Source: Falsarthrobacter nasiphocae
GTDB taxonomy: Bacteria > Actinomycetota > Actinomycetes > Actinomycetales > Micrococcaceae
Direction of reading: 5' to 3'
NCBI RefSeq assembly: GCF_031456275.1
Contig: NZ_JAVDUI010000001.1
Span: 806,001-870,000 of the forward strand
DNA: 64,000 nucleotides
The translations under genes were made by a program, and so were the position numbers. This document shows, piece by piece, positions 33,048 to 34,758 of this stretch. The notes below the pieces were generated by a model. The model had not been told where the DNA came from. It saw only the letters and a list, made by a program, of their open reading frames with translations, and did not search any database. How positions within the stretch are numbered: the first letter of the stretch is position 1; each line of letters opens with the position of its first letter.

Positions 33048-33368
33048 ATGAGCCTGATCCACGGATTCCTTCGCTACCTCGGCCTATCCCGAGACCCCTC
33101 CACCCAGGAGGCCACACCCACGCAGGCCCGTCCCACACGGCGGACAAAACTGCTCGCTGTCGTCGTTGGGCTAGGCGTCTTCGTCGTACTCTCGCTCGTA
33201 CCCCGCCAGGTGGACGCGCTTTCTGCCCTCGTCCCGTTGATCATGGCCATTCTCACCGCCAAGATCGCGCTGGGCACTACTCCTAACCCCCGGCCTTCGG
33301 GCAGCAGAACCTCGGAGCCCCCGTCTCCGCCCACGCCACGTCACTCCCCCACAAACCGCCCCTCATAG
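33048..33368 (+). CDS. Small two-helix membrane protein, island paralog 1
   Basis: This 106-residue protein starts with an amphipathic segment (LIHGFLRYLGLSRDP), then a basic linker (RPTRRTKLL), two hydrophobic helices (about 35-52 and 58-76) and a Pro/Ser-rich tail. ATG 33048 is preceded by a GGGGGTGGAG ribosome site. It is clearly homologous to the product at 33652-33954: FLRYLGLSRDP corresponds to VLRWLGLTRDP, and the helices align. Unlike the second copy it is followed directly by the 95-bp repeat with no secreted-protein gene. No known family is recognised; a membrane immunity or export helper role is only a hypothesis. Confidence 0.6.
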   Translation: MSLIHGFLRYLGLSRDPSTQEATPTQARPTRRTKLLAVVVGLGVFVVLSLVPRQVDALSALVPLIMAILTAKIALGTTPNPRPSGSRTSEPPSPPTPRHSPTNRPS

Positions 33369-33381
33369 GCACGCGGGGACA

Positions 33382-33476
33382 GCTCAGGCCCGGCACGCCA
33401 TTGTGCCGGGCCTGAGCCTTTGAGAGGTGCGCGTGATGAGGTGCGCACACGGTCCGCGCCTCGCGCGGGCCGATCC
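33382..33476. repeat. 95-bp direct repeat, copy 1
   Basis: Nearly identical (about 2-3 mismatches) to 34637-34731. It contains a perfect 15-bp stem (33382-33396 with 33403-33417, loop GCCATT) acting as terminator for the preceding gene, then GAGAGGTGCGCGTGATGAGG and a GTGCGCAC palindrome. A further hairpin follows at 33482-33502, also mirrored after copy 2. Confidence 0.9.
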
Positions 33477-33546
33477 GAGGGGTGACCCCAAGCTGGGGTT
33501 ACTCTCAACTCATCCTGAACTCAGACTGAGGATTTGATCACGAATA

Positions 33547-33552: not shown

Positions 33553-33651
33553 AATCGGTCGCTATTTCCGAAAGACCCTTGCGCGCCAGCCCGATGAGCA
33601 GCATCCTGTTATTGCAATCACATGGACAACATTCCAGGGAGGTGACACGCC

Positions 33652-33954
33652 ATCGTCCTCCAGAGAGTCCTGCGCTGGCTTGGCCTGACGCGAGACCCAG
33701 CCGAACAGGAGACGGTTCAGGACGACGCCCACCCCACATGGCGGGCAAAGTTTCCCGTCCTGCTCCTAGGCTTCGCCGTCTACTTCATCGTGAGTCTCGT
33801 GCTCCGGGACGCAGGCGAGGCCTTCAAGGCGATTCCATGGGCCTCGGCCCTCCTCACCGTCACCATCATGATGCCTGAAGGGACTACCCGGTCCAGGCCA
33901 ACCGAAAGGAGATATCCGGATGATCAAACCGCCCACCAAGACGATCCTCACTAG
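33652..33954 (+). CDS. Small two-helix membrane protein, island paralog 2, apparent AUC start
   Basis: The frame from 33652 encodes 100 residues beginning IVLQRVLRWLGLTRDPAEQE, homologous throughout to the product of 33048-33368 (helices at about 33-50 and 57-75). No ATG, GTG or TTG exists between the in-frame stop TGA (33643-33645) and the conserved region. The codon ATC at 33652 lies 9 bases after GGAGG, inside an excellent AGGGAGGTGA ribosome site (33636-33645). The most economical reading is initiation at AUC; loss of the start codon is the alternative. The end overlaps the next gene by 35 bases. Confidence 0.55.
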   Translation: MVLQRVLRWLGLTRDPAEQETVQDDAHPTWRAKFPVLLLGFAVYFIVSLVLRDAGEAFKAIPWASALLTVTIMMPEGTTRSRPTERRYPDDQTAHQDDPH

Positions 33955-34564
33955 CACACTGCTCCTGGGGCTCGCCTTCACCACGCCCGCCGGCCACGCC
34001 TCCCAACCCCAGACGCCAGTAGACCTGGTCAGCACCACCCTTGCACTCAACAGTGAGTCGTCAGGACGCGATGCTGAGCTCTTCCAACCCTTTCCCGGAG
34101 ACCAGCGGTCCGCGGCCTCGCGATTGGGCGCGCATCTCGGCGCTGGAGTCAGCGAACGAATCACCACGGAGCAAGCGAAAGTCATCAGCGACGTGTTTGT
34201 CAGCAGTGGAAGGGCCGCCCTTCCCGACGGGACCGTTGCGCTCCGCCACCTAGACTCCGGGGACCTCGTGGCAGTTGATGCGCTGGGAACCCCGCTCGCG
34301 ACCTACCTGGAAGCAACGCTTTCCGCACGAGACACGGCCCTGCCAGAAACCGAAGATGACACACAAGCCGAGGGGATCATCCATCCCGAGGTCAAGCGCA
34401 TCATCGGGGCCTGCCTTGGCATCGGAGTCCCGGGGGCCATTAGCGCAGAGACAGTGATCCGATGGTTCAACACCCCCCAGAAGGCCGCCAAGTTCATCGT
34501 GCGGCGGCTCGGTGTCTTCGGAGCAATCAGCTGTGCCGGAGGAATCATCTGGGAGTACATCTAG
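33920..34564 (+). CDS. Secreted protein with hydrophobic C-terminus, function unknown
   Basis: The protein has 214 residues. A Sec signal peptide (TKTILTSTLLLGLAFTTPAG, cleavage near residue 27) is followed by an acidic, Ser/Thr-rich middle and a distinctive C-terminus (about 155-214). The last part contains IIGACLGIGVPGA, a basic amphipathic segment (NTPQKAAKFIVRRLG) and SCAGGIIWEYI, with two cysteines. A secreted precursor with a compact hydrophobic cationic tail is compatible with a bacteriocin or surface-active peptide, but no family is recognised. ATG 33920 follows GAAAGGAGA. It overlaps the end of the small membrane-protein gene, suggesting a two-gene operon ended by the repeat at 34637. 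Confidence 0.65.
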   Translation: MIKPPTKTILTSTLLLGLAFTTPAGHASQPQTPVDLVSTTLALNSESSGRDAELFQPFPGDQRSAASRLGAHLGAGVSERITTEQAKVISDVFVSSGRAALPDGTVALRHLDSGDLVAVDALGTPLATYLEATLSARDTALPETEDDTQAEGIIHPEVKRIIGACLGIGVPGAISAETVIRWFNTPQKAAKFIVRRLGVFGAISCAGGIIWEYI

Positions 34565-34636
34565 ATCCCTATCGACGCTCATGCGTCACGAGTTTCTCCA
34601 CCCACCCTGAGGCGGCAGGCGAAACGACAAGACACG

Positions 34637-34731
34637 GCTCAGGCCCGGCACGCCATTGTGCCGGGCCTGAGCCTTTGAGAGGTGCGCGTGATGAGGTGCG
34701 CACACGGTCCGCGCTGCGCGCGGGCCGATCC
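34637..34731. repeat. 95-bp direct repeat, copy 2
   Basis: Copy of 33382-33476, offset by 1255 bases. It begins with a perfect 16-bp stem (34636-34651 with 34658-34673) followed by TTT, serving as terminator of the secreted-protein gene. The second hairpin after it (34736-34758) differs in sequence from the one after copy 1 but is in the same place. Confidence 0.9.
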
Positions 34732-34735
34732 TAGA

Positions 34736-34758
34736 GGCGGCCCCAGAGCGGGGCCGCC
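34736..34758 (-). terminator. Terminator of pckG
   Basis: Perfect 9-bp stem GGCGGCCCC (34736-34744) with GGGGCCGCC (34750-34758), loop AGAGC, 9 bases from the pckG stop codon. Confidence 0.75.

Follow-up and report, generated by a model that had tools for sequence, protein, structure and literature searches.

A conserved small-protein gene of Falsarthrobacter nasiphocae that may be translated from an AUC codon behind an extended Shine-Dalgarno sequence

Findings

The window, that is, the whole 64,000-nucleotide stretch of Falsarthrobacter nasiphocae DNA that was analyzed, contains between its PEPCK and flavohaemoprotein genes a small open reading frame (ORF) and a neighboring gene for a secreted protein, together with a flanking repeat of 112 bp (Table 1). 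The corresponding interval of the related genome G002 instead holds an EamA-type transporter, identified from its sequence, and the DNA directly following PEPCK there is similar to part of the 112-bp repeat. The segment 33491-34745, which is flanked by both repeats and contains both genes of the pair, could have been gained or lost by recombination between them. Bounded by these repeats, it is also possibly excisable or recently duplicated.

About 280 bp upstream of the small ORF lies a second, intact small-protein gene. The earlier note had described the two products as paralogous, and alignment bears this out (Table 1), although the two genes stand too near saturation (dN/dS 0.69/0.98) for this ratio to be informative. 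A -10-like GATAAT is seen only ~10 bases upstream of the start of this second gene, and hence its mRNA may have little or no leader.

Table 1. Features of the locus, with positions in the window
Feature	Position	Strand	Remarks
Small-protein paralog	33048..33368	+	ATG start; no secreted partner; 39% identity, E=2e-11
112-bp direct repeat, copy 1	33379..33490		terminator-like hairpin; 94% identical to copy 2
Possible 7-codon leader ORF (MDNIPGR)	33622..33645	+	TGA stop falls within the extended SD; or chance
Extended Shine-Dalgarno sequence GGAGGTGA	33638..33645	+	ends 6 nt upstream of the ATC; complementary to the anti-SD over 8 nt without mismatch
Predicted local hairpin	33638..33661	+	-9.1 kcal/mol; GGAGG of the SD paired with CCTCC directly after the start
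Small membrane protein gene	33652..33954	+	100 aa; N-terminal LRWLGL motif; immunity-like partner; basis: paralog, homologues, AlphaFold model
Inferred initiation codon ATC	33652..33654	+	near-cognate; usual SD spacing; distance to conserved Gly
Secreted pre-pro-protein gene	33920..34564	+	214 aa; basis: homologues, named loci, alignments
112-bp direct repeat, copy 2	34634..34745		adjoins the PEPCK terminator; strong hairpin

The translated frame of the small ORF is open over 33646-33954 and is preceded by an in-frame TGA at 33643-33645. It had been claimed in the earlier note that no ATG, GTG or TTG separates this stop from the conserved segment, and this proved correct: the only canonical initiation codons in the frame are GTG 33790, GTG 33799, ATG 33868 and ATG 33871, the first of them lying 46 codons into the frame without a ribosome site, and none is available at the conserved start position. 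The codon-usage score of the ORF (-0.02 per codon) is, if weakly, the best of the six frames, the others ranging from -0.21 to -0.77, and compares with a median of +0.33 for long native genes; such a weak fit would be expected of acquired DNA. Its 100 residues match the 88-106 of most homologues, and AlphaFold predicts, with low confidence (mean pLDDT 62), two helices comprising residues 30-51 and 56-73. Judging from its sequence features and homologues, this ORF is a real gene.

Upstream of ATC 33652 lies the extended Shine-Dalgarno (SD) sequence GGAGGTGA, whose GGAGG (33638-33642) ends 9 nt before the ATC and whose 3' end coincides with the TGA closing the frame upstream. The genome contains three copies of its counterpart, the anti-SD GGATCACCTCCTTTC, as rRNA operons would lead one to expect. 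We compared the predicted pairing at this site, -16.6 kcal/mol, with that of 366 genes chosen by codon usage from 464 kb of the F. nasiphocae genome (twenty 20-kb stretches plus the window). Pairing as strong or stronger was recovered for one of these genes and an uninterrupted 8-nt match to the anti-SD for 11 of the 366, both fractions being approximate as the gene starts in the sample were assigned by our own script; about 0.025% of random positions are as strong, in a run that used a slightly shorter anti-SD. The earlier statement that the GGAGG nine bases before the ATC is among the best ribosome sites of the window agrees with this comparison, and the ATC is provided with a strong extended SD at a proper spacing. 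The same SD is predicted to take part in a local hairpin (Table 1); over the wider region, predicted folding does not exceed that of shuffled sequences (z 0.94), and the hairpin may therefore be a chance pairing.

Several alternative placements of the start were considered and rejected: the internal GTG 33790 as the main start, which has no SD and would deprive the protein of its conserved N-terminus along with a large part of the first helix; the upstream ATG 33594 or TTG 33579, which are in a different frame and have weak SDs; and a frameshift at the locus, as the start position is equivalent in the homologues.

A conserved gene pair

The downstream gene encodes a protein with a signal-like N-terminal stretch and a conserved C-terminal region of 63 residues containing two invariant cysteines. 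In its predicted structure (overall pLDDT 60) the middle region, at about residues 70-130, is modelled with good confidence (pLDDT above 80). It has its own SD, GAAAGGAG, located 8 nt before ATG 33920 with a predicted pairing of -12.9 kcal/mol, which weakens an earlier suggestion that this gene had lost translational coupling to the small gene. Relatives of the secreted protein are found in the same taxonomic family, with E-values down to 4e-34; further relatives were recovered from the named genomes of Ornithinimicrobium, Arthrobacter sp. MYb229, Glutamicibacter soli and Pseudopropionibacterium massiliense, as well as of Rhodococcoides fascians, Aeromicrobium and Rothia nasimurium. A further member, from a skin isolate of Corynebacterium tuberculostearicum, is encoded on the 9.7-kb mobilizable plasmid NZ_CP073094.1 (7643-8478) along with a hydrophobic partner of 71 residues that lacks the motif of the small protein, both being annotated as hypothetical.

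Homologues of the small protein, of similar size, are present in about ten other actinobacterial genomes and usually adjoin a homologue of the secreted-protein gene. They are marked by an N-terminal L-x-W/Y/F-L/F-G-L motif, or a close variant of it, and by a hydrophobic central part. In most of the named loci the motif-bearing gene lies directly upstream of the secreted gene, and in Rothia directly downstream. No motif-bearing partner was seen beside the secreted gene in the Rhodococcoides and Aeromicrobium loci; conversely, genome G168 has the small protein with no secreted partner seen beside its gene. Within the genus, the small protein is absent from both other genomes. As a query on its own it found no match in genome_contigs or viral_contigs, and its weak family-wide matches are mostly noise, save for those that adjoin a secreted-protein gene or bear the N-terminal motif. 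With the C-terminal domain of the secreted protein, an order-wide search recovered its own genome only, and a class-wide search two more genomes, one of them again the Aeromicrobium locus; neither of these class-wide matches had a recognizable LxWLGL small gene next to the secreted gene. Damaged secreted genes also occur, with a stop codon in G141 and truncated copies in G200 and G188. We further noted that the locus of G351, whose genome belongs to the same actinobacterial family as the window, recurs in record WNZI01000006.1 under the title Vibrio cholerae strain 35D; this record is hence probably mislabelled or contaminated actinobacterial DNA.

These comparisons show the small and secreted genes to be a pair thinly spread over Actinomycetota. 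Given that its homologues are paired with secreted genes, the ATC ORF is the small member of this conserved pair, with its full length kept and no frameshift. Neither gene of the pair gave a match above the curated cut-off or otherwise significant in Pfam, NCBIfam, PHROGs and PADLOC; models of both proteins matched no solved PDB fold with E below 0.001, and a description of the peptide family was not found in the literature. The pair combines a secreted precursor whose C-terminal peptide is conserved, an adjacent small membrane protein and a patchy distribution. This architecture and spread, along with the orphan second small gene and the presence on a mobilizable plasmid, make the pair look like a bacteriocin precursor and its immunity protein. 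Going by the architecture, the likeliest role of the small protein is to shield the producing cell against the C-terminal peptide once this is processed.

Start codons in relatives and the infC precedent

The earlier note had proposed inspecting the codon aligned with 33652 in related loci. At the equivalent place all homologues examined have an ATG, GTG or TTG, with no frameshift needed and ATC in none of them. Going by position and SD, from which the start sites of the relatives were inferred, ATG is used in seven motif-bearing small genes (Arthrobacter MYb229, Glutamicibacter, G351, Pseudopropionibacterium, Rothia, G141 and G200) and in the plasmid-borne small gene of C. tuberculostearicum, GTG in G188 and G168, and TTG, or else a GTG directly preceding it, in the two Ornithinimicrobium loci. 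The start precedes the invariant glycine by 5-15 residues in these homologues and by 10 if translation begins at ATC 33652. The ATC is thus confined to this lineage, and the simplest reading of its history is a single change from ATG to ATC.

Initiation at AUC itself would be nothing foreign to this bacterium. In its infC gene (G000:C1, about 1831735) the stretch from the preceding stop codon to the point where conserved IF3 sequence begins contains no ATG, GTG or TTG, and the gene begins at an ATC located 8 nt after AAGGAG. Across 29 genomes, this one included, infC starts with ATC (15) or ATT (13) at the same place in 28, the start in the remaining one not being resolved by the search pattern. 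With such a start and no canonical alternative in infC, AUC initiation must work in this bacterium and, as far as these gene sequences tell, belongs to the normal repertoire of the lineage for at least one gene. Among the sampled 464 kb no other convincing candidate for an AUC, AUU or AUA start was found. In Streptomyces, too, infC starts at ATC, and non-canonical starts are repressed by IF3 (PMC5472188).

Weighing the explanations

We hold it most likely, at about even chances, that the small gene is weakly translated from AUC 33652 by virtue of its extended SD, at a level limited by IF3, with the paralog possibly covering the rest. The intact ORF, its family-typical length and the pairing with the secreted gene kept in several genera speak for use of the AUC, as do the normally spaced SD, which ranks near the top of the genome sample, the ATC start of infC, and the precedents in S. 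aureus and in Streptomyces sigR treated below; against it stand the ATC being common to no homologue and the predicted hairpin over the SD, which would lower initiation. The earlier note had left the choice between AUC use and a lost start, and here infC makes AUC initiation plausible while a single genome fits either reading. Our confidence is moderate since one genome is at hand and since a used AUC and a fresh start loss give the same sequence.

The main rival, which we regard as a real if minority possibility, is precisely such a recent loss, with one substitution having turned ATG into ATC and left the gene silent or nearly so, the loss being tolerated either through replacement by the paralog or through absence of secreted-peptide production. 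The canonical starts of all homologues agree with it, as do the intact ATG-started paralog a short distance upstream, which could cover the function, and the patchy nature of the pair and its frequent decay elsewhere, in the form of the stop and truncations in the secreted genes described above; a fresh start-codon mutation would, moreover, look identical. However, neither the ORF and its length nor its outstanding SD show any damage, an AUC behind so strong an SD should still leak, and an AUC start is already present in the genome. Initiation by another route, be it at GTC 33655, through readthrough of TGA 33643 from ATG 33622, or at the internal GTG 33790, we consider unlikely. GTC 33655-33657, which adjoins the ATC and likewise lies one change from a start codon, is a near-cognate alternative within reach of the SD, of the codon type known from Streptomyces sigR, and has a pairing of -18.3 in its upstream stretch; but it is 12 nt from the GGAGG, and the spacing favors the ATC. 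ATG 33622, though in the same frame and ahead of the TGA, has a weak SD of its own (-4.0), pairing at GTG 33790 is nearly absent (-2.2), and the latter start would also come at the cost of the conserved N-terminus. A base-call error, with G the true base at 33654, would require just a single substitution; yet the assembly is a single contig of chromosome size, and finished assemblies seldom contain substitution errors in their consensus, making this explanation very improbable.

If the AUC is used, then the canonical start of the small gene would have turned into AUC in this lineage, to judge from the starts of the homologues, and ribosomes held on GGAGGTGA would place fMet at AUC 33652, with IF3 limiting this initiation to a reduced level as in the organism's own infC. 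The secreted protein would be translated from its own strong SD, leaving the small protein low in proportion, and the paralog with its ATG start may supply the remaining share of the same activity. That the AUC has been selected, with the level of IF3 setting the ratio of protector to secreted peptide, the SD hairpin acting as a second brake and the paralog providing a constant base, appears rather unlikely to us.

Implications

To our knowledge, very few non-canonical bacterial starts have been characterized experimentally, namely those of infC, pcnB, sigR, cvfC1 and ccpN, and such starts are not sought by automated annotation. The infC gene resembles the ATC gene in having an AUC start behind an SD in this genome, in its relatives and in Streptomyces (PMC5472188). 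It differs in that its start (AUU, AUC or AUA) is conserved and autoregulated and its product is IF3, whereas the ATC of the small gene is confined to one lineage and its product is a small membrane protein. The sigR gene of Streptomyces has an IF3-repressed GTC start that lowers sigR relative to rsrA, which has its own ribosome-binding site (PMC5472188). Like the ATC gene, it is actinobacterial and the first of a two-gene unit with an independently initiated partner, and its non-canonical start sets the protein ratio, an effect that we infer for the ATC gene; unlike it, the start is GTC, is conserved across Streptomyces, serves a sigma/anti-sigma pair and has been experimentally proven. In Staphylococcus aureus, cvfC1 (AUU) and ccpN (AUA) combine non-canonical starts with very strong extended SDs, and such combinations give about 10% of the expression from AUG, one of them reaching as much as 30% (PMC13009471). 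While cvfC1 shares with the ATC gene a small product, the first place in an operon and a very strong extended SD, the starts and SDs of cvfC1 and ccpN are conserved among relatives and were shown by Ribo-Ret and reporters (PMC13009471).

Regarding the product, propionicins SM1, T1 and F are Sec-secreted bacteriocin precursors of propionibacteria, with resistance to propionicin F conferred via the membrane protein pcfI (PMC5756557). The pair described here resembles these in arrangement only, with a secreted precursor bearing a signal peptide or propeptide. It seems to represent an unnamed family of bacteriocin-like precursors of skin-, soil- and animal-associated actinobacteria. The gene at 33652 would be either a rare AUC-started gene or a very recent case of start loss; its ORF being backed by homology and its host already using AUC for infC, it would offer a clean test of whether a strong extended SD can carry an AUC start.
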